From Flavobacterium daejeonense DSM 17708 (GTDB taxonomy: Bacteria > Bacteroidota > Bacteroidia > Flavobacteriales > Flavobacteriaceae), in the NCBI RefSeq assembly GCF_000425425.1, contig NZ_AUDK01000017.1:1-64000 (forward strand): a DNA stretch of 64,000 nucleotides, given 5' to 3'. Under the pieces are notes generated by a model. That model was not told the DNA's origin and did not search any database. It saw only the letters and a list, made by a program, of their open reading frames with translations. A program made the position numbers and the translations under genes. Below, piece after piece: positions 17,293-55,697 of this stretch; the first letter of the stretch is position 1, and each line of letters opens with the position of its first letter.

Positions 17293-19389
17293 ATGAAAAA
17301 ACTATTCTTATTATTAAATTTTTTTTCGATATTTTACTCTGTTTATAGCCAGGAGTTAATTAATGAACCCAGCCCTTTTGGACCAATACCTACACAAAAA
17401 CAGCTTGACTGGCAGGAGATGGAATTTTATGCTTTTATCCATTTTTCATTAAATACTTTTACAAATAAAGAGTGGGGTTTTGGAGATGAATCATCACAAT
17501 TATTTAGTCCAACGGATTTAGATGCACGACAATGGGCGCGAATTGTTAAAGATGCCGGAATGAAAGGAATTATTTTGGTAGCAAAACATCACGATGGATT
17601 TTGTTTATGGCCGTCGGCATATACTGAACGTTCGGTGAAAAATTCACCTTGGAAAAATGGAAAAGGAGATGTGGTCAAAGAATTAACCGAAGCATGTAAA
17701 GAGTACAATCTTAAATTAGGACTTTATCTTTCGCCTTGGGATCGCAATCATCCGCAATATGGTAAGCCGGAATACATTACTTATTTCAGAAATCAATTGA
17801 AAGAATTGTTGACTAATTATGGAGATGTTTTTGAAATGTGGTTTGACGGAGCCAATGGAGGTGATGGTTACTATGGAGGGGCTAATGAAATCAGAAAAAT
17901 AAATACGCTGGAATATTACAATTGGGAAGAAACGTATAAAATGATTTATAATCTGGCACCTAATACTTTGGTTTGGGGAATTGGTCCATCAGAAGCCAGG
18001 TGGATAGGAAATGAAGAAGGTTATGCTAATAAAACCAATTGGAGTCTTTTACGCCAAAAAGATGATTTAGCTGGGAAAGTACATTATACGGAATATATGT
18101 CGGGGCATGAAGATGGAGAAAAATGGGTTCCCGGTGAAGCAGATGTGTCTATAAGACCGGGTTGGTTTTATCATGCTGCTGAAGATGATAAAGTACGTTC
18201 ATTAGATGAATTGGTGGATATTTATTATAAATCGGTAGGGCGAAATGCGAATCTTTTGCTTAATCTTCCGGTGGATAAAAGAGGTTTGGTGAATGAGAAT
18301 GATGAAAAGCGATTAAAAGAATTAGTAGCAGTTGTAAAAGCCGATTTTAAAACGGAATTATTGAGAGGAACGAAAGTTAAAGCTTCAAATTTTAGAGATA
18401 ATAATCGTCTTTTTTCGGCTGAAAATTTAACAGATGGCGATAAAAATACGTATTGGGCTACCGATGACGGAGTTAAAAATGCCCGTATCGAATTTCAATT
18501 TGAAAAACCAACAGCCATTAATAGAATATTGCTTCAAGAGTACATTAAGCTGGGACAAAGAGTTAAAGCTTTTACTGTTGAAGCTGAAGCAGATGGAAAA
18601 TGGATAACTGTAGCTAATGAAACTACCATTGGATACAAGCGAATAGTAAGGATAAACCGCGTAAAGGCGACAGCTTTACGAGTTAGTATTACTGATGCAA
18701 AAGCCAATATAGTACTTTCTGAAATTAAGGCTTATAATGCGCCTACTTTTGTAAAAATGCCAATAGTTCAAAGAGATAAAAACGGGATTGTTACTATGGA
18801 AACCACCGAAGGAAATGCAATTTATTATACCGTTGATGGAACAGAACCAACTGAAAAGAGTCAATTATATCAAGGATCTTTTATGTTTGATAAAACTGCG
18901 GTTGTAAAAACTATTGCCAGAAATACTTCAGAGCAAATAAACAGCGCTGTTAAAACCGTAAAATTTGGTCTTTCTAAAACGAATTGGAAAATATGGAAAG
19001 TTTCCAGCGGTGATATCAAAGAAGCAGAAAAGATTATTGATGAGAATCCTGATACGTGTTGGACTTTTGGAGATAATACTCATAAGCTTCCACAGGAGGT
19101 TATTATAGATATGGGAAAAGTATCAAAAATCAAGGGATTTAGTTATATGCCTTTACAAATGGGAAACCAACTCAATTTAATTTCAAATTATGAGTTTTAT
19201 ACAAGTAAAGACGCTAAAAAGTGGAGAAAACAATCAGAAGGAGAATTTTCAAATATTAAAAATAATCCTATAGAACAGTTGAAAATATTTAAAAAGGTTA
19301 AAGCACGATATTTGCGTTTTGTGGCATTATCCGCGATTGGTAAGGGAGAAAGGGTTTCTATAGGGGAGTTGAGTGTGATTGAGAAATAA
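17293..19389 (+). CDS. GH29 alpha-L-fucosidase with accessory domains
   Basis: A 698-residue secreted or periplasmic enzyme with a signal peptide (MKKLFLLLNFFSIFYSVYSQ). The GH29 catalytic barrel spans about 25-360: LVAKHHDGFCLWPS is the active-site loop and Asp185 in EMWFDGANGG the likely nucleophile. A discoidin (F5/8C)-like domain (~365-490), a chitobiase/HEX_C-like module (~500-565, YYTVDGTEPTEKS) and a second F5/8C-like domain follow. This architecture is usual for GH29 subfamily B enzymes, which prefer branched alpha-1,3/4-fucose such as Lewis antennae. It has its own promoter. It likely removes antennary fucose from N-glycans. Confidence 0.9.
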   Translation: MKKLFLLLNFFSIFYSVYSQELINEPSPFGPIPTQKQLDWQEMEFYAFIHFSLNTFTNKEWGFGDESSQLFSPTDLDARQWARIVKDAGMKGIILVAKHHDGFCLWPSAYTERSVKNSPWKNGKGDVVKELTEACKEYNLKLGLYLSPWDRNHPQYGKPEYITYFRNQLKELLTNYGDVFEMWFDGANGGDGYYGGANEIRKINTLEYYNWEETYKMIYNLAPNTLVWGIGPSEARWIGNEEGYANKTNWSLLRQKDDLAGKVHYTEYMSGHEDGEKWVPGEADVSIRPGWFYHAAEDDKVRSLDELVDIYYKSVGRNANLLLNLPVDKRGLVNENDEKRLKELVAVVKADFKTELLRGTKVKASNFRDNNRLFSAENLTDGDKNTYWATDDGVKNARIEFQFEKPTAINRILLQEYIKLGQRVKAFTVEAEADGKWITVANETTIGYKRIVRINRVKATALRVSITDAKANIVLSEIKAYNAPTFVKMPIVQRDKNGIVTMETTEGNAIYYTVDGTEPTEKSQLYQGSFMFDKTAVVKTIARNTSEQINSAVKTVKFGLSKTNWKIWKVSSGDIKEAEKIIDENPDTCWTFGDNTHKLPQEVIIDMGKVSKIKGFSYMPLQMGNQLNLISNYEFYTSKDAKKWRKQSEGEFSNIKNNPIEQLKIFKKVKARYLRFVALSAIGKGERVSIGELSVIEK

Positions 19390-19523
19390 TAAAATAAGGT
19401 AAAAAAAGATTAAAAGTTTTAATTGTGTTTTTTGCCGAAGCACAAAGGTTGTTAGTCGAATAAATAATTTTAAGCTGTAAAAGAACAGTAATTTTATCTT
19501 AATAATTTAATTCAGCAAATAAA

Positions 19524-21437
19524 ATGATTAAAGAAGATATTAATTTCAAAGAAGCAGGAAGGTTTGAAGAAACCCGTTTTGAAAAAATTCACAATGTAAT
19601 TTTTGACTCTTCAAAAGAGGCTTCATTATTGGTAGCACATGAAATCGCTAATTTGATTCAGAGAAAAGAAGAATTAAATGAACCTTGTGTTTTAGGGCTG
19701 GCTACAGGTTCTTCACCTATAAAAGTATATGAAGAATTGGTTAGAATGCATAAAGAAGAAGGGTTAAGTTTTAAAAATGTAATAACTTTTAATTTAGACG
19801 AATACTATCCTATGGATAAAGATAATATTCAGAGTTATTATTATTTTATGCATGAACATTTATTTAATCATGTTGATATTCCGGCTGAAAATATTAATAT
19901 TCCTGACGGAAAAGTTAGTGCCGAAGAATTACGTCAATATTGTATTGATTACGATATGAAAATTAATTCTTATGGTGGTTTGGATTTTCAATTATTAGGA
20001 ATTGGGAGAACCGGTCATATCGGGTTTAATGAACCAGGATCACATGTTAATTCAGCAACCAGAAGTATCACATTAGATCATATTACACGTGTAGATGCGG
20101 CACCTGCTTTTTTAGGTGTAGATAATGTACCCCGAAAAGCCATTACTATGGGAATAGGAACTGTTAGAAATGCAAAGAGAATTGTGCTTCTGGCCTGGGG
20201 AATCAGTAAGGCTGATATTATCAAAGAAACGATTGAAGGAGAAATATCTTCTCAGGTTCCGGCAACCTATTTACAGGAACATCCAAATACAACTTTTGTT
20301 TTAGATACCGAAGCATCTTCTGAACTAACGAGAGTAAAAACTCCCTGGCTAGTTAAATCATGTTTTTGGACAAATGAATTAAAATTGAAAGCAGTCGTTT
20401 GGTTAAGTGAACTAACAAGCAAACCAATTTTGAAACTTACCGATAAAGATTATAATGATAATGGAATGTCAGGTTTGTTAGCCGAAGAGGGAACAGCTTA
20501 TAATTTAAATATTAAGATGTTTAATACCCTGCAACATACTATTACAGGCTGGCCGGGCGGAAAACCTAATGCTGACGATACTTACAGACCGGAACGTTCA
20601 ACTCCGGCTAAGAAACGTATCATCATTTTTAGTCCGCATCCGGATGATGATGTGATTTCGATGGGAGGAACATTTGACAGATTGGTAGAACAAGGGCATG
20701 AAGTACATATTGCTTATCAAACATCCGGAAATATTGCAGTTTCTAATGAAGAAGCTTTAAAATTTGCAGAAGTTTCCACAGTTCTAAATTCAAAATCAAG
20801 CGAATCGGATAGTATTATTAATTTTTTAAAAAATAAATCTAAAAATGATATTGATACTCTTGAGGTTAGAAAATTAAAAGGACTTATTAGGCGTAGTGAA
20901 TCTCTGGGAGCTACAAGGTATTTAGGCGTTCCGGACGAGCAGGTTCACTTTTTGAACCTTCCGTTCTATGAAACCGGTACTGTAAAGAAAGGAAATCTTA
21001 CCGATGCAGATATTGATATTATGTGTAATCTTATTGAAGAGGTAAAACCACATCAAATATATGCCGCCGGAGATTTAGCCGATCCGCATGGAACTCACAA
21101 GGTTTGTCTGGATAGTTTGTTTGAGGCTTTAAAGCGACTAAAAAGCAAAAGTTTTATGGACGATTGTTGGGTTTGGTTGTATCGTGGTGCCTGGCATGAG
21201 TGGGAAACTTATGAGATTGAAATGGCGGTACCAATGAGTCCTGATCAGGTTCTTAAAAAACGTTACGCCATTTTCTATCATCAATCCCAAAAAGATGGTG
21301 TGATGTTCCAAGGAGATGATTCCCGCGAATTTTGGGTAAGAGCCGAAGACAGAAACAGAGCGACAGCTAAAAAATATAATGATTTAGGATTAGCCGAATA
21401 TGCGGCAATTGAAGCGTTTAAACGCTATCATTTTTAA
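19524..21437 (+). CDS. nagB: Glucosamine-6-phosphate deaminase fused to PIG-L-type deacetylase
   Basis: A 637-residue cytoplasmic bifunctional protein. The N-terminal ~270 residues are NagB: LATGSSPIKVYEEL for phosphosugar binding, NLDEYYP and GIGRTGHIGFNEPGS with the catalytic Asp/His. From ~355 a PIG-L/LmbE deacetylase domain begins with SPHPDDDVISMGG, which holds its zinc ligands. NagB converts GlcN-6-P to fructose-6-P and ammonia; the fused domain presumably deacetylates an N-acetylated sugar, perhaps GlcNAc-6-P. This fusion is known in Bacteroidetes. It would handle GlcNAc released by the GH20, GH18, GH130 and glycosylasparaginase genes of the locus. Confidence 0.85.
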   Translation: MIKEDINFKEAGRFEETRFEKIHNVIFDSSKEASLLVAHEIANLIQRKEELNEPCVLGLATGSSPIKVYEELVRMHKEEGLSFKNVITFNLDEYYPMDKDNIQSYYYFMHEHLFNHVDIPAENINIPDGKVSAEELRQYCIDYDMKINSYGGLDFQLLGIGRTGHIGFNEPGSHVNSATRSITLDHITRVDAAPAFLGVDNVPRKAITMGIGTVRNAKRIVLLAWGISKADIIKETIEGEISSQVPATYLQEHPNTTFVLDTEASSELTRVKTPWLVKSCFWTNELKLKAVVWLSELTSKPILKLTDKDYNDNGMSGLLAEEGTAYNLNIKMFNTLQHTITGWPGGKPNADDTYRPERSTPAKKRIIIFSPHPDDDVISMGGTFDRLVEQGHEVHIAYQTSGNIAVSNEEALKFAEVSTVLNSKSSESDSIINFLKNKSKNDIDTLEVRKLKGLIRRSESLGATRYLGVPDEQVHFLNLPFYETGTVKKGNLTDADIDIMCNLIEEVKPHQIYAAGDLADPHGTHKVCLDSLFEALKRLKSKSFMDDCWVWLYRGAWHEWETYEIEMAVPMSPDQVLKKRYAIFYHQSQKDGVMFQGDDSREFWVRAEDRNRATAKKYNDLGLAEYAAIEAFKRYHF

Positions 21438-21490
21438 CTTTTTTTTTAACTAGATATAGATAACATTTGTTTGGTTGGTTATTTATATTG

Positions 21491-21539: not shown

Positions 21540-22253
21540 TTATATTGAAGCATTTAATATTCGTTGTTTTACTTCGTCTATATAAGAACGACCTATAACA
21601 TATCGAAGGCCTTCAATTTCAATGCTATTTCCTTCAACGGCATCAATTTTATCAATAGCAATGGTATAGGAACGGTGGATTCTTAAAAAATCTTTTTCGG
21701 GTAGCAAACTGGTAAAATCAGATAATGTACTGTGAATAATGTATTTGCCAGTTGTGGTGTTGATTTTTAAATAATCCTTCAGGCTTTCGATGACTAAAAT
21801 TTCATTTAAAAAAATCTTCTTCATCCTTTTTTTGTCAATTTTTACAAAAATAAAAGGATTCTCTTTACTATTATCGATTGCGATTCTATTAGCAGTACTG
21901 AGTCTTTTGTGGACTTTGTTTACCGCTTTCATCAATCTGGGAAATTCAATTGGTTTTACCAGATAGTCTAAAACGTCTAATTCATACGTTTCAATAGCAA
22001 ATTCACCATAGGCGCTTGTTATAATTAGCAAAGGCGGATTTTCTAAACTTTTTATAAAATTAATACCATCTAAAACAGGCATATTGATGTCTAAAAAAAG
22101 GACATCGACCGAATTGTTTTTTAAAAAATTGAGTCCTTCAATGGGATTACTAAAGGAATTTATAAATTCTAACTCTTCAATTTGTTCAATATAATTTTTA
22201 ATGACATTAATTGCTAATGGTTCATCATCTATTATTAGACATTTAATTTTCAT
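21540..22253 (-). CDS. LytTR-family response regulator
   Basis: A 237-residue regulator with an N-terminal receiver domain (acidic IIDDEP, phosphoacceptor Asp55 in LFLDINMP, Lys in YLVKPIEF) and a C-terminal LytTR DNA-binding domain (about 135-237, with FLRIHRSYTIAIDKI). LytTR domains bind direct repeats in promoter DNA. The kinase gene upstream is its partner. Both lie inside the glycan locus, between nagB and the first GH92 gene, making them candidate regulators of it; many other PULs use hybrid two-component or ECF-sigma/anti-sigma systems instead, and neither was seen here. Confidence 0.9.
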   Translation of the reverse strand: MKIKCLIIDDEPLAINVIKNYIEQIEELEFINSFSNPIEGLNFLKNNSVDVLFLDINMPVLDGINFIKSLENPPLLIITSAYGEFAIETYELDVLDYLVKPIEFPRLMKAVNKVHKRLSTANRIAIDNSKENPFIFVKIDKKRMKKIFLNEILVIESLKDYLKINTTTGKYIIHSTLSDFTSLLPEKDFLRIHRSYTIAIDKIDAVEGNSIEIEGLRYVIGRSYIDEVKQRILNASI

Positions 22254-22312
22254 ATGTAATTTTTAGGGTCAAAATAATCGGAAAGTTTGTAAGCTGAATT
22301 TTGAAAGTTTGT

Positions 22313-23371
22313 TTATGAAACTTTGATTTTTAGCTTTACTACAAAAATATTATTTTTATTCTTAATAGACAGTTTATAATCATTTTTGTTGTATCCTAAT
22401 TCCAATCTTTTTTTAACATTTTCGATTCCTATTCCGCTTGATTTGTTGAATTTATCTACATGATTCGTTACTGTAGGCATCGGGTTTGATACCGAAAAAT
22501 AGAGATAATCTTCTTTGATCTTAAATTTGATATCGATTTTAACATTTCCCACATTTTTATTAGCACCATGTTTGAAAGAATTTTCTATAAAGGTCAGTAA
22601 GAGCATAGGAGAAATCTCTTTATCCTGGATGTCACCAGAAATATACATATTGACTTCCAGCCTCTCATCATGTCTGATTCGTTCCAGATCTAAGTAATTT
22701 TGAATGCAAAGAATTTCATTTTCTAAACTTTGTTTTTTACTCTGTGTTTCATAAAGCATATACCGCATTAGTTCAGATAACTTCAAAATAATTTTAGGCG
22801 TTTTATTTGATTTTTCGACTGATAAGGAATAAATATTATTTAAGGTGTTGAAGAAAAAGTGTGGGGAAATTTGTGATTTTAAAAATAAGAGTTCGGTTTC
22901 CAATTGTGATTTTTCAAGATCGGTTACTCTTTTATGTTCTTCTAAAAAGTCAAATGTAATTTTAATAGCCGTAACAAAAGTGATTACATAAAGTTCGCCC
23001 AGCATCATGTCGATACAGTAATTGAGGGAAAGGCTGTCGATGTATTCCGGACCTTCCGGCCAAACATTGTGATTAATTAAAAAATAAGTAAGATTAAATT
23101 TTACCACAACCATAAGAAATATAACAGCTAGCAGGGTAATTATATAAAAGAAGTATTTTTTTCGAAATAATAAATAAGGCATCAAGATAAAAATATTCAA
23201 ATAACAAAGACTCATGTGAATAGGGAAACCTAATAAGTTTGTTTTTAAAGAATAGAGGTAATCATTAAAATAACTGCCCCATCTAAAGGTGTTAAATATA
23301 AAATAGACTATCCAAAAAAGTATATGGTAGCGCAGTGGTAATCGGTATAATTTGTTATTGTTAAAAAGCAT
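22313..23371 (-). CDS. LytS/YehU-type sensor histidine kinase
   Basis: A 352-residue inner-membrane kinase. About four hydrophobic segments occupy residues 10-150 (HILFWIVYFIFNTF and others), followed by a short coiled linker and the His_kinase domain (PF06580) with LKSQISPHFFFNTLNNIYS, whose His is the phosphoacceptor. The ATPase part ends with GIGIENVKKRLEL. No large extracellular sensor is present, so it may sense via its membrane domain or a transporter. It is divergent from the GH92 gene at 23497 and 59 bp upstream of its regulator gene. Confidence 0.9.
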   Translation of the reverse strand: MLFNNNKLYRLPLRYHILFWIVYFIFNTFRWGSYFNDYLYSLKTNLLGFPIHMSLCYLNIFILMPYLLFRKKYFFYIITLLAVIFLMVVVKFNLTYFLINHNVWPEGPEYIDSLSLNYCIDMMLGELYVITFVTAIKITFDFLEEHKRVTDLEKSQLETELLFLKSQISPHFFFNTLNNIYSLSVEKSNKTPKIILKLSELMRYMLYETQSKKQSLENEILCIQNYLDLERIRHDERLEVNMYISGDIQDKEISPMLLLTFIENSFKHGANKNVGNVKIDIKFKIKEDYLYFSVSNPMPTVTNHVDKFNKSSGIGIENVKKRLELGYNKNDYKLSIKNKNNIFVVKLKIKVS

Positions 23372-23440: not shown

Positions 23441-23496
23441 ATTTCAGTAGAAATCAAATTTATCTAAATTTAAAGTTAAATTAAAGATTGTTTGAT

Positions 23497-25740
23497 ATGA
23501 GGAAATTCGGAATCGTTATTTTAGGTGTAATTCTGGTCGCGGGTTGCAGGGTAAATATAGACAAAAATAAACATAAAAATATTTTTTTAACGCGTCATGT
23601 AGCTCCTTTAATAGGGACTGGAGGACACGGTCATACTTATCCGGGAGCAACGGTTCCTTTTGGAATGGTACAGGTTAGCCCTGATAATGGAATTTCAAGT
23701 TGGGATTGGTGTTCGGGTTATCATTATTCCGATTCGATTGTTGCCGGATTTAGTCACTTACATTTAAGCGGAACAGGAATTGGTGATTTAGCTGATATTC
23801 TTTTGATGCCAATCAATAAAAAAGTAGTATTAACTACAACTTCAACTTCCAGAGATTCATTATCCTATAAATCTACTTATTCTCATAAAAATGAAACTTC
23901 TAAACCTGGTTATTACCAGGTGTATTTGAATGATCCTAAAATTAATGTTGAGTTGACAGCTACACAGCGTAAGGCTTACCATAAGTATACATTTACTAAA
24001 AATGATGAGCAGGCAGTTGTTATAGACCTTGGTTTTGCAATCAACTGGGATAAAGCCACTCAATCTCAACTTACAATTGAGAATAAAACTACGATTAGCG
24101 GTTACCGTTACAGTACAGGTTGGGCCAAAAATCAAAAAGTATTTTTTGTAGTTCAATTTTCTAAGCCAATTTCTCATTATAATATAGTTGCTGATGAAAC
24201 AAAAAAGGAATCTGCAACCGCTTCAGGAGAAAAAGTCATTGCACAATTGTTTTTTGATGAACAAAATTCAAATGAATTATTGGCTAAAGTAGCACTGTCT
24301 TCAGTAAGTGTAGCTAATGCTAAAGATAATTTGAATGCCGGAGATTTTAATTTTGAGAAAGTAAAATCAGAAGCTCAAAAAAACTGGAATCACTCTTTGT
24401 CTACAATTGAAGTGGAAACCCCGGTTGATTCTTTAAAAACTATTTTTTATAGCGCTATGTATCATGCGCAATTAGCACCTGTTACTTACAGCGATAAAAA
24501 CGGGGAGTTTAGAAGAGAGGATGATACCATTATTACAGCTAAAGATTACACTGCCTATTCTACTTTGTCACTTTGGGATACTTTTAGAGCTGAAAATCCT
24601 TTGTTGACTTTACTTGCTCCAGATAAAGTTTCGGATATTATCAATTCGATGTTGGCTTATTATGAAACAAAAAAAATATTGCCCGTTTGGACATTATATG
24701 CTAATGAAACCAATACAATGACTGGGTATCATGCGATTCCTGTAATTGTAAATGCGTATAAAAATGGTATTAAAGGTTTTGATGCCGAAAAAGCATTTGA
24801 AGCTATGAAAAATACTATGATGCAAAACGAACGCGGATTAGATTTGTATAAAAAATACGGTTTCATTCCTTATAATCTATTGGATGAGTCGGTAACGATT
24901 ACATTAGAATATGCTTATGATGATTGGTGTGTGGCTCAAATGGCTAAAGCTCTGGGTAAAGAAGATGATTACAACTATTTTCTAAAACGTTCAAAAGCCT
25001 ATGAGTTTTTATTTGATGCTCAAACCGGATTTATGAGAGGAAAAGCAGCTGATGGAAAAACATGGAATCCTTCTTTTGACCCAAAACACTCTAACCACAG
25101 AGAACATACCGATTATACTGAAGGTAATGCCTGGCAACACAGTTGGTTTGTACCACAAGATGTAGATGATTTTATCATTTTGCACGGAGGTAATCAAAAA
25201 TTCTCTCAAAAATTAGAACAATTGTTTACGGAAAGTTCAGAGATAACCGGAAATAATGTTTCTGCAGATATTTCGGGGTTAATCGGGCAATATGCTCACG
25301 GGAATGAACCGAGTCATCACATTGCTTATATGTTTAATCATGCTAATCAGCCTTGGAGAACACAATATTGGGTACATCATATTTTAGATACTCAATACAA
25401 TACGACTCCAAACGGATTAAGTGGTAATGAAGATTGCGGACAAATGTCAGCTTGGTATATTTTTAGTTCAATAGGATTGTATCCAATGAATCCTGCCTCG
25501 GGTGAATATGAAATAGGTAGTCCTTTATTCGAAAAAACAACCATAAAACTTCCGGAAGGTAAAAGTTTTACTATTGAAGCTGAAAATGTTTCAACTAAGA
25601 ATTTTTACATACAATCAGCAACACTTAATGGTGTTGAATTTAACAAAACAACAATTACGCATCAACAGCTATTACAAGGTGGGACTTTACATTTTGTTAT
25701 GGGGTCTGAGCCAAATAAAAATTGGGGATTAACGAAATAA
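23497..25740 (+). CDS. GH92 alpha-mannosidase (lipoprotein), copy 1
   Basis: A ~747-residue Ca-dependent exo-alpha-mannosidase. A lipoprotein signal peptide (MRKFGIVILGVILVAGC) predicts attachment to an outer or periplasmic membrane face. GH92 hallmarks are complete: GTGGHGHTYPGATVPFGM near the N-terminus, HGNEPSHH, and GNEDCGQMSAWY near the C-terminus. The GNE-type pocket residues go with alpha-1,2-mannosidases in characterised GH92 enzymes. ATG at 23497 is chosen over the TTG at 23488. It starts a co-directional run of thirteen genes to 46024, most separated by fewer than 45 bp. Role: trimming mannose from N-glycans. Confidence 0.9.
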   Translation: MRKFGIVILGVILVAGCRVNIDKNKHKNIFLTRHVAPLIGTGGHGHTYPGATVPFGMVQVSPDNGISSWDWCSGYHYSDSIVAGFSHLHLSGTGIGDLADILLMPINKKVVLTTTSTSRDSLSYKSTYSHKNETSKPGYYQVYLNDPKINVELTATQRKAYHKYTFTKNDEQAVVIDLGFAINWDKATQSQLTIENKTTISGYRYSTGWAKNQKVFFVVQFSKPISHYNIVADETKKESATASGEKVIAQLFFDEQNSNELLAKVALSSVSVANAKDNLNAGDFNFEKVKSEAQKNWNHSLSTIEVETPVDSLKTIFYSAMYHAQLAPVTYSDKNGEFRREDDTIITAKDYTAYSTLSLWDTFRAENPLLTLLAPDKVSDIINSMLAYYETKKILPVWTLYANETNTMTGYHAIPVIVNAYKNGIKGFDAEKAFEAMKNTMMQNERGLDLYKKYGFIPYNLLDESVTITLEYAYDDWCVAQMAKALGKEDDYNYFLKRSKAYEFLFDAQTGFMRGKAADGKTWNPSFDPKHSNHREHTDYTEGNAWQHSWFVPQDVDDFIILHGGNQKFSQKLEQLFTESSEITGNNVSADISGLIGQYAHGNEPSHHIAYMFNHANQPWRTQYWVHHILDTQYNTTPNGLSGNEDCGQMSAWYIFSSIGLYPMNPASGEYEIGSPLFEKTTIKLPEGKSFTIEAENVSTKNFYIQSATLNGVEFNKTTITHQQLLQGGTLHFVMGSEPNKNWGLTK

Positions 25741-25751
25741 CAAAAAGAAGC

Positions 25752-37675: not shown

Positions 37676-37719
37676 CTATTCAACTTTAAATTTTATAAAT
37701 GTATAATTTAGAACAAAGA

Positions 37720-46344: not shown

Positions 46345-49300
46345 ATGAATCAAAATGTATTAAAACTACTGTTTGTGTTTTGCTTGTTAGGGTTTCAATA
46401 TTCGCAAGCCCAAATTAAAGTGACAGGAACAGTTACAGATGCAAAAAGTGGTGTTCCTTTGCCAGGAGCAAACATTAATGTAAAAGGGACGACAAATGGG
46501 GTGTCATCAGATTTTGACGGGAAGTACACAATAAGTGTTCCTAATCAATCAGCAGTTCTTGTATTTACTTTTATAGGTTCTGTTCCAAAAGAGGTAGTAG
46601 TTGGAAATTCCACTACAATTAGCATTGCTTTATCTGAAGATGCACAACAATTAGGGGAGGTTGTTGTAACGGCTTTAGGTATTAAAAGAGAGAAAAAATC
46701 GTTGACTTATTCGGCACAGACGGTGTCTACAAAAGAACTTTCGGAAGCAAGATCTTTAAACGTTGCGAACTCACTATCTGGAAAAGTAGCGGGGCTTAAC
46801 TTTTCAACTACTGGTTCAGGAGTAGGAAGTTCTTCCAGGATTACATTAAGAGGGAATCGTTCTCTAACCGGGAATAACCAACCTTTATATGTTATTGATG
46901 GAGTTCCTATGGATAACTCTGTAACTTCTCCAGCTACAGATATTGGAGGAACTACAAGTTTTGATGGAATTTCAAATATCAACCCTGAAGATATTGAAAG
47001 TATAACTGTATTGAAAGGCCCTTCGGCAGCAGCTTTATACGGTTCACGTGCTAGTAACGGGGTTATCGTGATAACAACTAAAAGCGGATCTAAAGAAGGA
47101 AAAGCAAAAATTTCAGTTTCTTCAAATTTCATGGCATCAAATGCTTATAATTTGTTGAATCAACAAAATGTTTACGGTCAAGGAGCCGGAGGAGTTTATA
47201 ATCCTTTATCAAAAACTAGTTGGGGACCAAAAATGGAAGGTCAGGCAGTTGCTGCCTGGCAATTAAGTCATAACCCTAATTATGATGGTCCGGCTACTTA
47301 TGCGTTTACCCCACAACCAAATAACTCTTCAGACTTTTTTAAAGGTGGTTATAACTGGTCTAAAAATTTAACAGCATCAATGGGTAATGAAAAAACGCAA
47401 GGTTATTTTTCTTACACAAACACTACAGCTGAAGGCATTGTTGTTGGTAATGAACTTGACAGACATAATGTGAATTTACGTTTGACTAGTAACTTAACAG
47501 ACAAATTAAAATTGGATGTTAAAACTAATTATATTAATCAAAAAATTGAAAATGCTATTGGTGCTGGTGAAGGAGGAATTGGTGAAGCCGTTTACACCAT
47601 GCCAAGAAGTTTACCTTACAGTCAATATAAAGATTTTGAATACATTGATGATGCCGGGCAAATTAGATATAATTATCCGGATGCAAATACTTTAAGTACT
47701 TTGGGAGCAAACCCTTTTTGGTTAGCTAAAAGAAATTTAAGAACTGATGAAAGAAGCAGAATTATCGCTTTTGGATCTTTAACGTATGATTTTACAAAAG
47801 AATTAAGTTTAATGGTTAGATCAGGTATAGATCAGGCTACCAATAAATCTAAAAATTCTCGTTATGCAGCAGTCGCTATCTTAAATCAGGATTATGGAAG
47901 TTATTCAGAGTCGATTGGAGATGTTTTAGAAATGAATACCGATTTCCTTTTGTCTTACAAAAAAGAATTAGGTGTTTTTAAATTAAATGCCAATTTTGGA
48001 GGAAATGCCAGAAATCAAAAAAGTACTGGTTTAAGTAGTGGGGGAACTTTAACTAAGAGAAATTATTTTACATTGACTAATTTACAAAGCACTACTGTAA
48101 CTCCAGAATATAGTCACAAAAAAGTAAATTCTTTGTATGGTTCTGCTCAGTTAGGATATAAAGATTATTTGTTTTTAGATGTTACAGCACGTAATGATTG
48201 GGATTCAACTTTGCCAGAGAATGACAGGTCTTTCTTTTATCCGTCAGTAGGATTATCAGGGATTGTTACCGATATGTTAGATATTAAATCGGATGTGTTA
48301 TCTTTCTTAAAAGTTAGAGGTTCTTTTGCTCAGGTAGGTAACGCTACAGATCCTTATCTTTTGGCTAACCAATTGTATTTTTATGGTTTTAACGGAGGTG
48401 TAGTACAATCTTCAACTTTAAAGAACAACCCAAATCTTAAACCGGAAATTTCAAGTTCAACAGAATTTGGTTTGAATACAAGACTTTTTAAGAATAGAAT
48501 TGGTTTAGATTTTACTTGGTTCCAAACTGATACTAAGGATCAGATTTTTACAATTAACTTACCAGAGTCTTCAGGATATTCTAAACAAGTTATTAACGGT
48601 GGAAAAATTCAAAATAAAGGTTTTGAAATGGTCTTGAATGCTAAAATTTTCGATGATGAAAAATTTAGTTGGGATGCAACAGCAAACTTTGCAACTTACA
48701 GAACTAAAGTTTTAAGTCTTTCTGAAGGACAGGATGAATTAAATCTTTCTACTGGTTATGAAAGGTTAGCACAAACAATTGTTAAAAAAGGTGGTGGTTA
48801 TGGAGATTTGTATATTAGAGGATTTAAACGTAATGATGCTGGGGAAATTATTGTAAATGCTACAAGTGGATTACCTGAATTTACTTCTGGATTTGACGTG
48901 TTGGCTGGAAGTTTTAATCCAGACTGGACAGCAGGTTTACAAAATACTTTTAGATATAAAGATTTTAGACTTAGCTTTTTGGTAGATTTCCGTATGGGAG
49001 GTAAAACGATTTCTTACTCTCAGGCAAGAATGGCTGGAGCCGGAGCAAGTGAAATTACTTTAGCTGGTAGAGATGGTTTTGTAGTTAATGGTGTCAATGA
49101 TAATGGGGATGGTACTTATTCACCAAATGCAACTTCCATAACTGCTGAAAATTATTGGTCACAAGTTGCCAGCAGAGATCCTAAATCAGCAGAAGATTTT
49201 GTCTTTGACGCTACGAACATCAGATTAAGAGAAGTAGTTCTAGGATATTCACTTCCAAGTAAATTTTTGAAAAAATCACCATTTACAGGAGTTGATTTCT

Positions 49301-49452
49301 CTTTAGTAGGTAGAAATTTATTCTTCTTTGTTAATAAAGCAAAATATTTTGATCCCGAACAAGGAGTTAGTGTAGGTAACCTTCAGGGAATAGAATCTTA
49401 TAACATTCCAAGTACAAGAGACTTTGGATTTAATGTAAAATTCAACTTTTAA
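46345..49452 (+). CDS. susC: SusC-like TonB-dependent outer-membrane receptor
   Basis: A 1035-residue protein with a signal peptide ending SQAQ, a carboxypeptidase-D-regulatory-like N-terminal domain (VTGTVTDAKSGVPLPGANI), a plug (PLYVIDGVPMDN) and an outer-membrane barrel ending in NVKFNF with the terminal Phe. It imports oligosaccharides across the outer membrane using TonB energy. A SusD partner follows after 10 bp. Since the catabolic operon sits immediately upstream, its cargo should be N-glycan fragments or glycopeptides. Confidence 0.92.
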   Translation: MNQNVLKLLFVFCLLGFQYSQAQIKVTGTVTDAKSGVPLPGANINVKGTTNGVSSDFDGKYTISVPNQSAVLVFTFIGSVPKEVVVGNSTTISIALSEDAQQLGEVVVTALGIKREKKSLTYSAQTVSTKELSEARSLNVANSLSGKVAGLNFSTTGSGVGSSSRITLRGNRSLTGNNQPLYVIDGVPMDNSVTSPATDIGGTTSFDGISNINPEDIESITVLKGPSAAALYGSRASNGVIVITTKSGSKEGKAKISVSSNFMASNAYNLLNQQNVYGQGAGGVYNPLSKTSWGPKMEGQAVAAWQLSHNPNYDGPATYAFTPQPNNSSDFFKGGYNWSKNLTASMGNEKTQGYFSYTNTTAEGIVVGNELDRHNVNLRLTSNLTDKLKLDVKTNYINQKIENAIGAGEGGIGEAVYTMPRSLPYSQYKDFEYIDDAGQIRYNYPDANTLSTLGANPFWLAKRNLRTDERSRIIAFGSLTYDFTKELSLMVRSGIDQATNKSKNSRYAAVAILNQDYGSYSESIGDVLEMNTDFLLSYKKELGVFKLNANFGGNARNQKSTGLSSGGTLTKRNYFTLTNLQSTTVTPEYSHKKVNSLYGSAQLGYKDYLFLDVTARNDWDSTLPENDRSFFYPSVGLSGIVTDMLDIKSDVLSFLKVRGSFAQVGNATDPYLLANQLYFYGFNGGVVQSSTLKNNPNLKPEISSSTEFGLNTRLFKNRIGLDFTWFQTDTKDQIFTINLPESSGYSKQVINGGKIQNKGFEMVLNAKIFDDEKFSWDATANFATYRTKVLSLSEGQDELNLSTGYERLAQTIVKKGGGYGDLYIRGFKRNDAGEIIVNATSGLPEFTSGFDVLAGSFNPDWTAGLQNTFRYKDFRLSFLVDFRMGGKTISYSQARMAGAGASEITLAGRDGFVVNGVNDNGDGTYSPNATSITAENYWSQVASRDPKSAEDFVFDATNIRLREVVLGYSLPSKFLKKSPFTGVDFSLVGRNLFFFVNKAKYFDPEQGVSVGNLQGIESYNIPSTRDFGFNVKFNF

Positions 49453-49462
49453 TAAATAAATT

Positions 49463-51031
49463 ATGAAAAACAATATAGTTAAATTTATAGCGATAGCTTT
49501 CTTGTTTCAGATAACAGGGTGTACTTCGGATTTTAATGAAGTAAATACAAATCCAAATACCCTTACTTCTGATCAGTTAGATGCAACAATGGCAGGGCCA
49601 TCATTTGCAAATGCTTTATATAAAGGAATAGGGAATGCTTCTTGGAGTTTACCAGGAGATGATTATGGAACTTATGGATTAGCTACAGCCTTACATTCAA
49701 TGGTTTTTTCACATTATATGGCCTATCCGGGTGGAGCAACAGATGCCAATGGAATAAATGATGGATGGAGAAGTAGAGGTTGGTTAAGATTCTATACAAT
49801 AGCAGTACCATCTCTTTTAAATACCTATAAAGCTGCTGCAGGAAATGCAGAAGCGTTAGCTGTTTTAGATATCTGGAAAGTTTATATGTTTCACAGATTT
49901 ACTGATGAGTGGGGACCAATTCCTTATACTCAGGCAGGTATTGGAGGTAAATCAGTAGCTTATGATTCTCAAGAAGCAATGTATACTGATTTTTTCAAAC
50001 TATTGGATGCTGCTAATACGACTTTGAGTACCAGTTCTGCAACTACTGTTGGTGTATTTAAAGATTATGATGCATTATATAGCGGAGATGTCGAAAAATG
50101 GAGAAAGTTTGGAAATTCATTGCGATTGCGTTTAGCTTTAAGAATTTCTGATATAGATGCTGCAAAAGCTAAAACAGAAGCAGAAGCAGCTGTAAGTGCC
50201 GGAGTGATGGTGTCAAATAGTGATAATGCATACTATAAAGTTACTTCAGATACCTATAATAATTTTGTAGATATTATGAAATACTGGGGATTTTATATGA
50301 CTGCAGATATGGAAAGTATTCTTAAAGGTTATAATGATCCCCGTATGGCAAAATGGTTTAGCCCTGTATTAGATAATACTTCTACATATAAAGGACAGTA
50401 TGTAGGCTTACCTAATGGTATTGGAACAACAATTCCTTATCAAGGTAAAAATTTTAGTGGAACTAATCAGGTAACTACATTTTCAGATAATGCAACAAAA
50501 GACATAGAAGTAATGATGGCTTCGGAATCAGATTTTAATAGAGCAGAAGGGGCTTTGAAAGGATGGAGTATGGGAAGTACCGCAAAAGAATTATATGAAG
50601 ATGGTATTCGCTTATCTCTACAACAATGGGGTGTAACTGACGAAAGTCAAATAACTGCTTATATCGCGGGAACCACTACTGGTGCTGTACCTACATTTGG
50701 AAGTTTGTATACCAATTCTACACCACCTGTGAATGTACCAGTTGCATGGTCAGGTACTGTAGCAAATCAAAAAAAGCAAATTGCTGTTCAAAAATATTTA
50801 GGTCTTTTCCCAGAGTCATGGGAAGCTTGGTCTGATTTACGCAGAACGGATGCTAATATTTTATATCCTTTGCTTACAACAGAAGATCCTACAATAGGAA
50901 AAGGAATTATGAAGCGTATCACTTATTTACCTAATGAATATAGTACCAATGGTGATGCGGTTAATGCAGCGGTTCAATTACTAGGAGGTGCTGATAAAGG
51001 AAGTACTAAACTTTGGTGGGACGTTAATTAA
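49463..51031 (+). CDS. susD: SusD/RagB-like outer-membrane lipoprotein
   Basis: A 522-residue lipoprotein (FQITGC lipobox) of the SusD-like superfamily (SusD/RagB-like_2 type): the C-terminal region has FNRAEGALKGW, IAVQKYLGLFPESWEAW and the LWWDVN end. It forms the lid of the SusC channel and captures glycans at the cell surface. It begins 10 bp after susC. No SusE/F-like surface protein follows, so this is the minimum uptake pair. Confidence 0.9.
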   Translation: MKNNIVKFIAIAFLFQITGCTSDFNEVNTNPNTLTSDQLDATMAGPSFANALYKGIGNASWSLPGDDYGTYGLATALHSMVFSHYMAYPGGATDANGINDGWRSRGWLRFYTIAVPSLLNTYKAAAGNAEALAVLDIWKVYMFHRFTDEWGPIPYTQAGIGGKSVAYDSQEAMYTDFFKLLDAANTTLSTSSATTVGVFKDYDALYSGDVEKWRKFGNSLRLRLALRISDIDAAKAKTEAEAAVSAGVMVSNSDNAYYKVTSDTYNNFVDIMKYWGFYMTADMESILKGYNDPRMAKWFSPVLDNTSTYKGQYVGLPNGIGTTIPYQGKNFSGTNQVTTFSDNATKDIEVMMASESDFNRAEGALKGWSMGSTAKELYEDGIRLSLQQWGVTDESQITAYIAGTTTGAVPTFGSLYTNSTPPVNVPVAWSGTVANQKKQIAVQKYLGLFPESWEAWSDLRRTDANILYPLLTTEDPTIGKGIMKRITYLPNEYSTNGDAVNAAVQLLGGADKGSTKLWWDVN

Positions 51032-51164: not shown

Positions 51165-51887
51165 ATGCTACTTGAAATCTGCGCTTCATCGTATCAATCG
51201 GCTATAAATGCGCAAAATGCAGGTGCACATCGTATAGAGTTGTGTTCTGAATTAGCCTTAGGAGGAATTACGCCTTCATATGGCTTAATCAAAAGAGTAA
51301 AGGATAATCTTTCCATACCGGTACATGTATTGATAAGACCACGGAGTGGAAATTTTACTTATTCTGATGAAGAATTTGAAATTATGAAAGCCGATATTGA
51401 ATTGTGTAAAAAAATGGGGTGTCAGGGAATTGTTTCAGGCGTTTTAAAATCAGACAATACCATTGATGTTATTAGAACGCAAGAATTAATTGCTTTAGCA
51501 AAACCATTGTCTTTTACTTTTCACAGAGCTTTTGATTGGGTTGAGAATTCTTTTGAAGCACTTGAAGTATTAAAAACTATTGATGTAAATCGGATTTTGA
51601 CTTCTGGGAAAAAAAGTACGGCTCAGCAAGGAATTGAACTCCTTAAAGATTTAGAATCCAAAGCCCAAAATCAATTAATAATCCTTCCCGGTAGCGGAAT
51701 CAATTCAGAAAATGTCTTCCAATTTAAAGAAGCAGGATTTAAAGAAATTCATTGTTCTGCTTCGACTATACACTATGTAAATAAATTGGGAACAATACCG
51801 ATGAATAGTTCTGTTTTTTTTGATGAACATATTCTCGTTCATTCTGATTATGATAAAATTAAAAAAATACTAGCATCCGTTAGTTAA
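51165..51887 (+). CDS. cutC: CutC-family protein
   Basis: A 240-residue TIM-barrel protein with the CutC signatures: LEICASSYQSAINAQNAGAHRIELC, HVLIRPRSGNF and FHRAFDW. CutC was named for copper homeostasis in E. coli, but its biochemical function is unsettled, and a metabolic or sugar-related role fits the present context at least as well. It starts a new transcriptional block after the susD terminator and precedes a sugar transporter by about 80 bp. Confidence 0.85.
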   Translation: MLLEICASSYQSAINAQNAGAHRIELCSELALGGITPSYGLIKRVKDNLSIPVHVLIRPRSGNFTYSDEEFEIMKADIELCKKMGCQGIVSGVLKSDNTIDVIRTQELIALAKPLSFTFHRAFDWVENSFEALEVLKTIDVNRILTSGKKSTAQQGIELLKDLESKAQNQLIILPGSGINSENVFQFKEAGFKEIHCSASTIHYVNKLGTIPMNSSVFFDEHILVHSDYDKIKKILASVS

Positions 51888-51969
51888 AGTGCCTATTGCG
51901 CATACTACTTACATAAATACTCATTGTTTCAACTCATAAATGTGGTTGAACATACAAAAGATAATTAAA

Positions 51970-53304
51970 ATGAATACTAGCAGCATCACTTTACCGCAAA
52001 CTAAAAATAATAGTTTGATTCCAATCTTAATTATAGCAGGACTATTTTTTATTTTTGGATTTGTTACCTGGATTAACGGAGCTTTAATTCCGTTTATGAA
52101 AACCATTAATGAATTAACTTCAGCCCAATCTTTTTTAGTTGCTTCGGCTTCTTACATTTCATTTGTGGTGATGGCTTTACCAGCTTCTTATGTTTTGTCT
52201 AAAGTTGGGTATAAAAAAGGAATGTCTTTGGGCTTATTTATTATGGGCTTGGGAGCTTTGGTTTTTATTCCGGCTGCTGAAGCAAGAACGTATTGGATGT
52301 TTTTAACTGGAATTTTTATTCAAGGTGCCGGAATGACTTTGTTGCAAACGGCGTCCAATCCTTATATTACTATTTTAGGGCCAATTGAAAGTGCTGCAAA
52401 ACGCATTTCCATTATGGGAATTGCTAATAAAGTTGCAGGAGCTTTAGGTTCGCTTATTTTTGGGGCATTGCTTTTAACCGGTATTGATGAAATCAAAGAA
52501 AAATTAAATGTGGTTAGCGCTGCCGAAAAAGCAGAATTATTAAATACTATGGCTGATAGCGTGGTGATGCCTTATGTTGTGATGGCTTCTGTTTTGTTTA
52601 TTTTAGCTGTTTTAATTAGAAAAGCACCTCTTCCTGATGTTGAAGCAGAACCGATTGAAGAATCAAAAGATGGAAGTACATCTAAAACTAGTATTTTTCA
52701 ATTTCCACATTTATGGTTGGGTGTACTCACACTTTTTATGTATGTGGGAGTAGAGGTTATTGCCGGTGATACTATTATTGCTTATGGAATTTCATTAGGT
52801 ATTCCTGTTGCGGATGCTAAGTTTTTTACCACTTTTACTTTGATGGCAATGGTAGCCACTTATGCTACGGGGGCTATTTTAATTCCAAAATATATTTCGC
52901 AAACATTAGCTTTAAAATTGAGTGCAACTTTAGGTATTATTTTATCTTTTTGTATTGTGTTTACAACAGGATTTACCTCAGTATTATTTGTAGCCGCTCT
53001 AGGAGTTGCTAATGCTTTGGTTTGGCCTGCTGTTTGGCCCCTTACTTTAAACGGATTGGGAAAATTTACTAAAACAGCTTCTGCTTTATTAATTATGGCT
53101 ATTTCTGGTGGTGCAATTATTCCTCCTCTGTATGGAAAATGGGTTGATGCAAATAAAGCGGAATTTTTAACCCAGGGGATGGACGAGGCTCTGGCAACGG
53201 CTACCGCTTCCACTAAAGGTTATTGGATTTTATTACCTTGTTATCTGGTTATTTTATATTATGCTGTTGCCGGACATAAATTAGGACTTAAAGGCGAAAA
53301 ATAA
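51970..53304 (+). CDS. FucP/NagP-type sugar MFS transporter
   Basis: A 444-residue, ~12-TM protein with FFIFGFVTWINGALIPFMK and FLVASASYISFVVMALPASYVL, typical of the FucP/GluP/NagP branch. It is only distantly like the fucose permease at 8574 in the variable loops (for example the acidic loop about residues 210-235 here). In a GlcNAc- and hexose-releasing locus it is likely to carry GlcNAc, glucose/galactose or mannose. The ATG at 51970 starts after AAAAATTAAAA; the frame open from 51940 adds a non-family extension. Its stop overlaps the next ATG by 1 bp. Confidence 0.8.
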   Translation: MNTSSITLPQTKNNSLIPILIIAGLFFIFGFVTWINGALIPFMKTINELTSAQSFLVASASYISFVVMALPASYVLSKVGYKKGMSLGLFIMGLGALVFIPAAEARTYWMFLTGIFIQGAGMTLLQTASNPYITILGPIESAAKRISIMGIANKVAGALGSLIFGALLLTGIDEIKEKLNVVSAAEKAELLNTMADSVVMPYVVMASVLFILAVLIRKAPLPDVEAEPIEESKDGSTSKTSIFQFPHLWLGVLTLFMYVGVEVIAGDTIIAYGISLGIPVADAKFFTTFTLMAMVATYATGAILIPKYISQTLALKLSATLGIILSFCIVFTTGFTSVLFVAALGVANALVWPAVWPLTLNGLGKFTKTASALLIMAISGGAIIPPLYGKWVDANKAEFLTQGMDEALATATASTKGYWILLPCYLVILYYAVAGHKLGLKGEK

Positions 53305-54362
53305 TGAAATTTTTAAAATTAAAATATTTTGTTTTAGGGATTGTTTCAATGTTTTTTTCCTGTAATGCCTTGCTTAAGAAACCTTCTGTCATTAAGGTTA
53401 CAAACAGTTATATTGCAAGTGAACCAGTAACCATTAATAGCCATGCGGCAACTTTAGTTGAATATAAGCCAAATAAAATTATGGCAGCATGGTTTGGAGG
53501 AAGTTATGAAGGAGCAAAAGATGTTGCTATCTATATTTCAAAATTAGAAGCAAGTACTTGGACACCACCTCAATTGGTTGTAAAACCTGCAGTGAAACAA
53601 GGCGATACTTTAGCCTGTTGGAATCCAGTTTTATTTAAGAGTAAGAAGACTAAAAAATTATATTTATTTTACAAAGTTGGCAAAAACCCGAGAGAATGGT
53701 TTGGAGCAATGATTACATCCATTGATGATGGAAATTCATGGAGTGCACCAAAATATCTGCCTGATGGATTTTTGGGACCCATTAGAAATAAAGCTATTGA
53801 AGTTAATCCAGGTGTTATTTTATGCGGGAGCAGTACCGAAAGTGTCGAAAACAACCAATGGAGAGCTCATATAGAAATCTATAATGAATTAACTGATACC
53901 TGGTCTAAAATTTCTATCCCAAATGATGAGGAATACGATATAATTCAGCCTACAATTTTAGAACATTCCAATAAAAAATTACAATTACTTTTTAGAAGTA
54001 AGCATAATAAATTGGTAACTAGCTGGTCTGTTAATAACGGAGAAACATGGACTAATGCTGAAATCATTGATGTAGTAAATTCTAATTCAGGTATTGATGC
54101 TTTAAGTTTATCAAACCATTCTTTTTTATTAGTTAACAATCCATTGCCACAAGGAAAAGACTGGTTTTACGGGCGAAATGTTTTGGATGTTGAATTTTCT
54201 ACTAATGGTATAAAATGGGAGAAGTTATTGGATCTTGAAAATCAAAATGAAGGAGAATTTAGCTATCCCGCCATTATTCAAACGGCTAATCGTAAAATTC
54301 ACATTGTATATACTTATAACAGGAGATATAGTAAGTATGTAAGTTTTGAAATGAAAAAATAA
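53304..54362 (+). CDS. Neuraminidase-like BNR lipoprotein
   Basis: A 352-residue lipoprotein (SMFFSC lipobox) with a six-bladed propeller pattern. Asp-box repeats are seen in SIDDGNSW and SVNNGETW, and the family segment is AAWFGGSYEGAKDVAI with LACWNPVLF. This group (BNR_2, PF13088) is annotated as sialidase, but does not show a clear RIP motif of GH33 sialidases, so activity on sialic acid is doubtful. It overlaps the transporter by 1 bp, indicating translational coupling, and precedes a mutarotase. Confidence 0.7.
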   Translation: MKFLKLKYFVLGIVSMFFSCNALLKKPSVIKVTNSYIASEPVTINSHAATLVEYKPNKIMAAWFGGSYEGAKDVAIYISKLEASTWTPPQLVVKPAVKQGDTLACWNPVLFKSKKTKKLYLFYKVGKNPREWFGAMITSIDDGNSWSAPKYLPDGFLGPIRNKAIEVNPGVILCGSSTESVENNQWRAHIEIYNELTDTWSKISIPNDEEYDIIQPTILEHSNKKLQLLFRSKHNKLVTSWSVNNGETWTNAEIIDVVNSNSGIDALSLSNHSFLLVNNPLPQGKDWFYGRNVLDVEFSTNGIKWEKLLDLENQNEGEFSYPAIIQTANRKIHIVYTYNRRYSKYVSFEMKK

Positions 54363-54371
54363 TTGTAGTTT

Positions 54372-54704: not shown

Positions 54705-54713
54705 ACATTAAAT

Positions 54714-55697
54714 ATGTTATTGGTAAAAAGAATAGAATGGAAATATTTGTGGGTGATTGCAATCTTTTTTAGTTGTACTGTGCGTGCTCAAAATAACCAT
54801 TTGGCAAAAACATTTTATAAACATGATAAATATCTTTCTTCGGATAAAATGGAAGGAAGATTTCCGGGAACCAAGGAGAATAATGAAGCAGCAGCTTATA
54901 TAAAAAAATATTTTCAGAAATACCATTTACAGCCTTTGAATGCCGATGGTTATTATCAATCTTTCAAATTATTTGTAAAAGAAGGGGTGAATAAAATGCC
55001 ATCAGACACAGTGCAAACACAGAATGTTGTGGGATTTATTGAAGGTTCAGATCCAAAACTCAAAAATGAATACATTGTGATTGGCGCGCATTATGACCAT
55101 TGGGGTTGGGGCGGAGTAGGCTCTGGCAGCAAAAAGAAAGATACTGTGGCGATTCATAATGGAGCAGACGATAATGCTTCTGGAGTTGCTGCTTTACTTT
55201 GTATTTTAGAGAAAGTTTCTAAGTCTAAAGAAAAACCTGCAAGAAGCATTGTTTTTATTGGTTTTAGTGGAGAAGAAGAAGGCTTGTTAGGGTCAAAATA
55301 TTTTATCAATCATCTGGCTGTTCCTAAAGATGCTGTAAAAGTAATGCTGAATATGGATATGGTAGGACGATTAAATGCTGAAAAACAAATTTATATGGGA
55401 GGTGCAGGAACTTTCCCTGAAGGCGTAGCACTGATGAAAAAAATAGGAGAAAATAGTGGTTTGAATCCGGTTATTCATGCCGGTGATGTAGGAGGTTCTG
55501 ATCATGTTTCTTTCTATAAAGCGGGTATCTCGGCTGTAGGATTTCATACAGGTGGTCATCCACAATACCATACTCCGGAGGATGATATTGATTTGATTAA
55601 TTTTGAAGGTGGCGCTTTGGTGAGTCAATATATTTACAATGCTTTAATGGCAATAGCAAATTATCCGCAGGCGTTGTATTTTATCAATCAGGATTAG
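54714..55697 (+). CDS. M28-family zinc aminopeptidase
   Basis: A 327-residue exported peptidase with a signal-like N-terminus (VIAIFFSCTVRAQ). Zinc ligands are seen in GAHYDHWG, NGADDNASGVA, SGEEEGLLGS and NMDMVG, and the last in HTGGHPQYHTPEDD. It would remove amino acids from peptides or glycopeptides left after glycan and protein cleavage, consistent with a glycopeptide-processing locus and with glycosylasparaginase needing a free alpha-amino group on Asn. It begins 9 bp after the mutarotase and ends the operon. Confidence 0.88.
   Translation: MLLVKRIEWKYLWVIAIFFSCTVRAQNNHLAKTFYKHDKYLSSDKMEGRFPGTKENNEAAAYIKKYFQKYHLQPLNADGYYQSFKLFVKEGVNKMPSDTVQTQNVVGFIEGSDPKLKNEYIVIGAHYDHWGWGGVGSGSKKKDTVAIHNGADDNASGVAALLCILEKVSKSKEKPARSIVFIGFSGEEEGLLGSKYFINHLAVPKDAVKVMLNMDMVGRLNAEKQIYMGGAGTFPEGVALMKKIGENSGLNPVIHAGDVGGSDHVSFYKAGISAVGFHTGGHPQYHTPEDDIDLINFEGGALVSQYIYNALMAIANYPQALYFINQD

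Follow-up and report, generated by a model that had tools for sequence, protein, structure and literature searches.

Why would a glycosylasparaginase gene lie in the middle of a large set of glycan-degrading genes, and what substrate would enter such a pathway? The question is raised by a locus of Flavobacterium daejeonense DSM 17708 at positions 17,293 to 55,697 of a 64,000-nucleotide stretch of contig NZ_AUDK01000017.1, which is called the window here. The host assembly is a draft genome of 4.24 Mb in 49 contigs and is 100% complete by tool estimate. The original prediction, made from the window itself, described an N-glycan utilisation locus with glycosylasparaginase (AGA) and an M28 peptidase built in, and proposed growth on glycopeptides or free glyco-asparagine. 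Every gene named there was recovered by the Pfam search at the same place between 17.3 and 55.7 kb. The proposed use of glycopeptides or glyco-asparagine was supported as a reading of the sequence. The locus is likely a polysaccharide utilisation locus (PUL) type system for complex, probably plant-type N-glycans, which would arrive joined to asparagine or short peptides.

Glycosylasparaginase within a conserved gene block

The locus combines a SusC/SusD pair, clustered carbohydrate-active enzymes and a regulator, as a PUL-type system does, and GH92 together with a GH130 of the mannosyl-GlcNAc phosphorylase type marks it by sequence as an N-glycan PUL (Table 1). Thirteen co-directional genes run from GH92a (23488) to GH3 (46024) with intergenic gaps of at most 77 nucleotides (nt). 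AGA lies inside this run, starting 6 nt after GH92b and ending 70 nt before GH20. A second unit starts 320 nt after GH3 and is composed of SusC, SusD, CutC, an MFS carrier and BNR_2. The spacing is operon-like, and the genes would probably be co-expressed.

The gene at 34285 is by family a true glycosylasparaginase (EC 3.5.1.26), with its activity predicted. Its product scores 422 bits against the Elizabethkingia glycosylasparaginase over residues 41–333, and the search against solved structures also matches human aspartylglucosaminidase. The solved mature beta chain (1ayy) aligns from Thr192, the predicted autoproteolytic threonine and nucleophile of an Ntn-hydrolase, with which the beta chain would begin. 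The active-site residues His190-Asp191-Thr192, Arg220 and Asp223 are all present and are conserved in at least 95% of 21 AGA proteins. The best segment is 90% identical to AGA of Flavobacterium glycines and F. pokkalii. The N-terminus is twin-arginine-like, likewise in the 20 other AGA proteins compared. Therefore, export to the periplasm is likely. A different role, in which AGA would act as an asparaginase or beta-aspartyl peptidase to supply nitrogen and would stand among glycan genes by accident, is highly improbable. The fold family does take in isoaspartyl peptidases, and the sole NCBIfam model listed for AGA is a beta-aspartyl-peptidase; however, that model is far under its cut-off (106 versus 567 bits), and the best isoaspartyl peptidase reaches 112 bits against the 422 bits above. 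The glycan block around AGA is also conserved, GH92, GH20 or CutC lies within 10 kb of AGA in 45 of 52 more distant loci, and a GH2 beta-mannosidase is close to two AGA–CutC pairs.

Conservation was scored within 10 kb of AGA in 80 named loci, which were picked by AGA similarity, are mostly from Flavobacterium and include a record of F. johnsoniae. GH130 and the CBM9-like gene were each found in 79 loci, GH20 and SSF in 78, GHL10 in 77, GH92a in 75, GH92c in 73, GH29b in 66, GH3 in 59, GH35 in 37, GH18 in 16 and PNGase F in 4. The proposed synteny check, glycosylasparaginase beside GH92 and GH130, was thus positive, and the claim of an N-glycan locus with AGA built in is borne out. The closest relatives repeat one order, namely the regulator pair, GH92a, SSF, GH130, CBM9, GHL10 and AGA, mostly followed by GH20 and GH92c. 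The CBM9-like protein and GHL10, both near-invariant, probably have a role in N-glycan use.

A survey of 199 Flavobacteriaceae genomes, in which AGA was found in 128, was carried out with the CBM9-like protein as a block marker to avoid selection by AGA. The marker is present in 48 genomes (2 of them with weak or partial matches). AGA occurs in 46 of the 48, versus 82 of the 151 others (Fisher 2e-8, with the kinship of genomes ignored), and lies inside the same block in 19. It was not found in two marker genomes (G155 and G002). Yeosuana aromativorans (G133; contigs C2 and C3) carries AGA twice and has GH130-CBM9-GHL10 duplicated in tandem.

Release of the glycan and the proposed route

GH18, GH85 and PNGase are the three families of releasing enzymes listed in the accessible part of a review on how bacteria degrade N-glycans (PMC10154615). 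The original prediction had seen no PNGase gene in the window, and this holds genome-wide for PNGase F (PF09113, its C-terminal domain) in a search of one draft genome with one model, PNGase A-type models not being searched. The model is able to see the PNGase F family, since it detects genes in 43 of the 199 family genomes. GH85 was not detected in the genome either, and the one GH18 of the genome is that of the locus.

Seventeen related block loci were compared. A PNGase F-family gene lies within 7 of them, which ties the block to N-glycans. In Flavobacterium limi (G127), GH3 is followed by another SusC (31% identity), a gene for a PNGase F-family protein of 561 residues, and then BNR_2 (62%) and M28 (76%), and the PNGase F-family gene with the other SusC occupies the place of the window's SusCD-CutC-MFS. 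From its length alone, we presume the 561-residue protein to be F-II-like. The locus of G159 has SusC (79%) and SusD (78%) of the window type, MFS and BNR_2, and no PNGase. The block genomes G159, G094 and G153 gave no GH18, GH85 or PF09113 match at the thresholds used. In them, AGA or an enzyme outside the searches must open the link. The comparison shows that AGA is a standing part of predicted N-glycan loci in many Flavobacteriaceae, whereas PNGase varies. With AGA constant, PNGase variable and three block genomes without a match to the releasers searched for, glyco-asparagine as the real substrate becomes testable.

It is unlikely that GH18 is the releasing enzyme, an endo-beta-N-acetylglucosaminidase of a chitinase-like branch that cuts the chitobiose core and leaves GlcNAc-Asn for AGA to clear. 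This GH18, which carries the DGIDIDWE motif from residue 133, is the sole one in the genome and is situated in the block, and the same kind is found in 6 of the 17 related loci. With 28.0 bits, it is just over the cut-off of 27 for PF23916, the EndoS barrel model. The structure 6inx, which heads its Foldseek matches by E-value and ranks seventh by Z (42.9), bears the title of a GH18 N-acetylglucosaminidase. On the other hand, the protein matches PF00704 with 297 bits, and its other nearest listed sequences and folds are chitinases or chitinase-like proteins. By sequence and predicted fold, it is mainly chitinase-like. An acidic stretch after the lipoprotein cysteine directs export to the surface; Cys16 of GH18 is not followed by one, so that surface export is doubtful. 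Moreover, GH18 is missing within 10 kb in 64 of the 80 named loci, and G127, G013 and G133 have both GH18 and a PNGase F-family gene. Of the two routes originally offered, the best reading follows proteolysis plus glycosylasparaginase, and release by GH18 is the weaker.

Plant N-glycans bear core alpha-1,3-fucose, beta-1,2-xylose and Lewis A antennae, according to the accessible part of PMC9522356. The first solved match of GH3 is a beta-xylosidase (584 bits) with beta-glucosidases close behind, and the first linkage-named solved relative of the GH29 at 17293 is an alpha-1,3/4-fucosidase, its closer relatives not being linkage-named. Together with GH35, GH20, three GH92 and GH130, these matches suggest a fit to plant N-glycans. 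The following order of steps is proposed. At first, SusCD would import glycopeptides or glyco-asparagine. Second, periplasmic GH29, GH35, GH20, GH3 and GH92 would remove antennae, fucose, xylose and alpha-mannose, and peptidases, perhaps M28 among them, would shorten the peptide down to asparagine. Third, exported AGA would cleave the GlcNAc-Asn amide, and the chitobiose core would be split by GH18 and/or GH20. Man-beta-1,4-GlcNAc may then be imported through SSF or MFS and split by cytoplasmic GH130. Finally, the NagB fusion would serve the use of GlcNAc, the nearby FucP and fucose dehydrogenase genes would serve that of fucose, and CutC may act on the amino-sugar product of AGA.

Several points weigh against this route. 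The specificities of GH3 and GH29 are not readable from family, and beta-glucosidases stand near the beta-xylosidase match. In 27 of the 48 marker genomes, AGA is distant from the block or is found on a different contig. Membership of M28 and CutC varies; among 18 block genomes, 10 have CutC, and the window is the only one in which it is part of the block. The scope of the PNGase F search, one draft genome and one model, counts here as well, and release by some other enzyme (GHL10, BNR_2) is conceivable.

CutC and its link with AGA

To our knowledge, the function of CutC is unsettled; the copper phenotype in E. coli has been ascribed to the small RNA MicL. The protein at 51165 belongs to PF03932 (7.4e-69), a family with members in humans, and its structural match to human CutC has Z 36.9 and a root-mean-square deviation (rmsd) of 2.0 over 235 aligned residues. 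The closest listed fold outside CutC is MJ1099 (Z 21.4, rmsd 2.8, 212 aligned), and further listed neighbours are the barrels of hexulose-6-phosphate synthase, DERA, PdxJ and TrpF. Glu4, Arg23, Glu25, Arg58, His120, Arg121, Asp124 and His196 are invariant in 19 CutC proteins. The predicted fold suggests an enzyme of phosphorylated small molecules.

The association of CutC with AGA was surveyed in 247 Bacteroidota genomes, with counts not corrected for kinship. AGA is present in 121 genomes and CutC in 76, and 75 of the 76 also have AGA. In 35 genomes, which represent 9 families, CutC and AGA are less than 1 kb apart; CutC comes directly after AGA on its strand in 30 of them, and the two genes diverge in 5. 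They touch or overlap in 6 of 19 measured pairs. Chance adjacency does not explain this, as about 0.07 of 75 genomes would be expected within 1 kb, a figure in which shared ancestry remains. Of the 52 more distant loci of the family, 21 have CutC no further than 1.5 kb from AGA and 28 no further than 10 kb. PF09113 matches 37 of the genomes. The 11 with matches above 150 bits all have CutC and AGA, and CutC occurs in 4 of the 26 with weaker matches (G229, G237, G241 and G314). CutC adjoins PNGase F in two family members (G138 and G195). For the only CutC genome without AGA (G418), a PNGase F was predicted; none was found (no match at E 1e-8), and the prediction failed.

Becerra et al. state, in the accessible part of PMC6960285, that cells cannot metabolise 1-amino-GlcNAc, the product of AGA, as such and that acidic pH makes it unstable. 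A cytoplasmic enzyme acting on this amino-sugar would therefore be a reasonable role for CutC. Specifically, we put forward, with considerable doubt, that CutC of Bacteroidota serves N-glycan amidase catabolism as a cytoplasmic enzyme and is not mainly a copper protein. It would convert 1-amino-GlcNAc (possibly its 6-phosphate) coming from AGA or PNGase and imported by the neighbouring MFS.

A strict link is opposed by the 46 of 121 AGA genomes without CutC and by the rarity of the two genes together in the window's own clade. The surroundings of 20 AGA–CutC pairs were also read. GH2 beta-mannosidase is near 2 of them, M28 near 1, and GH92, GH20 and GH29 near 1. Against a dedicated pathway, 14 have no further gene of the window set by tblastn, and 6 of 10 annotated neighbours are unrelated to glycan or peptide trimming, namely an H+-pyrophosphatase, a met-zincin, MacB, a member of the arginine deiminase family, an acyl synthase and one family-less protein. 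In control genomes, CutC is matched in E. coli, Caulobacter and Lactococcus, and the wider AGA family PF01112 gave no match in Lactococcus. Therefore, CutC can occur without the AGA family outside Bacteroidota. In the open-access literature, with most subscription journals outside it, no paper joining CutC to glycosylasparaginase was found among the matches listed. The link supplies a concrete, testable pathway for a protein family also present in humans. If the proposal is true, CutC proteins elsewhere, those of humans among them, may act on glycosylamines as well.

Members, borders and relation to known systems

Table 1. Features of the locus and of the upstream fucose genes, with coordinates in the window.
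Feature	Position	Strand	Basis
L-fucose uptake and oxidation: FucP permease, L-fucose dehydrogenase, fuconolactonase-like amidohydrolase, Zn-dependent dehydrogenase	8574..12778	-	NCBIfam
GH29 alpha-fucosidase with F5/8-type C domains	17293..19389	+	Pfam and solved relatives
NagB-PIG-L fusion (glucosamine-6-phosphate deaminase-like and de-N-acetylase-like)	19524..21437	+	Pfam; NF002557 1073 bits (cut-off 384)
LytTR response regulator and histidine kinase, probable regulators	21540..23371	-	Pfam; position kept in related loci
GH92 alpha-mannosidase a, lipoprotein-type signal	23488..25740	+	Pfam
SSF sodium:solute symporter, possible sugar/oligosaccharide importer	25722..27629	+	Pfam, NCBIfam
GH130, UhgbMP (mannosyl-GlcNAc phosphorylase) type	27707..28672	+	Pfam; 502 bits to 4udk
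CBM9-like secreted protein, near-invariant in block	28678..29745	+	Pfam and conservation
GH18, mainly chitinase-like, lipoprotein-type signal	29783..30907	+	Pfam, sequence, predicted fold
GHL10 glycosyl-hydrolase-like, lipoprotein-type signal, block member	30939..32036	+	Pfam and conservation
GH92 alpha-mannosidase b; nearest solved relative titled putative alpha-1,2-mannosidase	32044..34278	+	Pfam
Glycosylasparaginase (AGA; Pfam Asparaginase_2), twin-arginine-like signal, predicted nucleophile Thr192	34285..35301	+	Pfam and solved relatives
GH20 beta-N-acetylhexosaminidase	35372..37675	+	Pfam
GH35 beta-galactosidase	37699..39582	+	Pfam
GH29 alpha-fucosidase with Fucosidase_C domain (GH29b)	39613..41097	+	Pfam
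GH92 alpha-mannosidase c	41107..43347	+	Pfam
GH3 with PA14 insert	43364..46024	+	Pfam; best solved match beta-xylosidase, 584 bits
SusC/SusD outer-membrane importer (SusC 46345, SusD 49463)	46345..51031	+	Pfam
CutC, TIM barrel, no signal sequence seen	51165..51887	+	Pfam PF03932 and fold
MFS sugar transporter	51940..53304	+	Pfam, NCBIfam
BNR_2 protein, lipoprotein-type signal	53304..54362	+	Pfam
M28 peptidase, aminopeptidase-like, likely last locus member	54714..55697	+	Pfam

Members that the original prediction had not named are the regulator pair (21540 and 22313), the CBM9-like gene (28678), GHL10 (30939), CutC (51165) and BNR_2 (53304). By eye, the N-termini of GH92a, GH92b, GH18, GHL10 and BNR_2 are lipoprotein-like, and a signal sequence is absent in GH130, the NagB fusion and CutC. 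The MFS protein scores highest to the GlcNAc carrier NagP (NF046060), at 406 bits below the cut-off of 625, and passes the broader gluP model TIGR01272 (279 bits, cut-off 203). The fusion of NagB to a PIG-L domain possibly couples deacetylation and deamination of GlcNAc-6-phosphate in a single protein. In F. limi, BNR_2 likewise separates the importer genes from M28, and in G159 it follows MFS. BNR_2 resembles sialidases only weakly, its matches to pneumococcal sialidases being weak (best 7e-6).

A cluster of fucose genes lies about 4.5 kb upstream, outside the range of the original prediction. FucP scores 529 bits (cut-off 280), the fucose dehydrogenase model FucosDh 354 (cut-off 300) and the fuconolactonase 263, under its cut-off of 400. 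A LacI-type regulator at 12792 joins these genes (8574–13814) in a probable fucose oxidation cluster near GH29. Fucose freed by the two GH29 enzymes may possibly drain through it.

At the downstream edge, M28 is the least certain member of the locus. The gap to BNR_2 is 351 nt and that to GH2 (55829) is 131 nt, and this nearness to GH2 makes it possible, if less probable than membership, that M28 and GH2 are the end of a neighbouring pectin-type locus. GH2 scores 1645 bits (cut-off 1500) as a BT4151-type exo-beta-1,4-galactosidase and is followed by a terminator-shaped hairpin at 58742–58789, such sites being no commoner than in shuffles, and then by a pectinesterase. In F. limi, however, BNR_2 and M28 stand at nearly the same distance from AGA as in the window, and no match to GH2 (55829) was found in the stretch compared, up to 32 kb downstream. 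The originally proposed membership of M28 has some, if limited, backing in its kept place in F. limi and in an M28 gene of the distant relative G314, which is 53% identical and lies 54 nt upstream of the AGA–CutC pair there. The idea that M28 generally accompanies AGA was rejected, since that is the one case among the 20 AGA–CutC pair loci.

The locus is a variation on known N-glycan PULs, and the CutC association is the newest lead. Human lysosomes break down glycoasparagines within a single compartment, as is proposed here, by means of proteolysis, a fucosidase, AGA, exoglycosidases and a chitobiose cleavage of the GH18 type. The differences would be the bacterial periplasm, the final phosphorolysis by GH130 and the mannosidase families. 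In the open-access literature, no paper with both glycosylasparaginase and GH92 was found.

The bacterial systems are compared as far as the accessible parts of their sources describe them. Bacteroides plant N-glycan loci with a group 2 PNGase (PMC9522356) likewise gather SusC/D, GH29, GH3, GH130 and GH92 around an N-glycan amidase, and their substrate features, core fucose, xylose and Lewis A, match the enzyme set of the window. Their amidase is a PNGase, whereas the window has glycosylasparaginase and no PNGase F was found there. In B. massiliensis, unlike in the window, the enzymes are scattered across several loci (PMC9522356). The combination originally called unusual is so only in part: AGA belongs to the block of many Flavobacteriaceae, and an AGA operon, alf-2 of Lactobacillus casei, is published (PMC6960285). 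That operon for fucosyl-GlcNAc-Asn resembles the window in glycosylasparaginase beside alpha-fucosidase and MFS, and in the use of a glycoamino acid. Its AsnA2 is 28% identical to the Elizabethkingia AGA (PMC6960285). However, it is small, handles the core stub only and has AGA without a signal peptide, whereas the window has a twin-arginine-like AGA and a whole trimming set. Elizabethkingia meningoseptica has AGA of the same family, and PNGase F, F-II and AGA come from this one species (PMC10154615, PMC13204146). The terms 'gene cluster', 'operon' and 'CutC' are absent from the main text of PMC13204146, whereas AGA of the window is embedded in a predicted degradation block.

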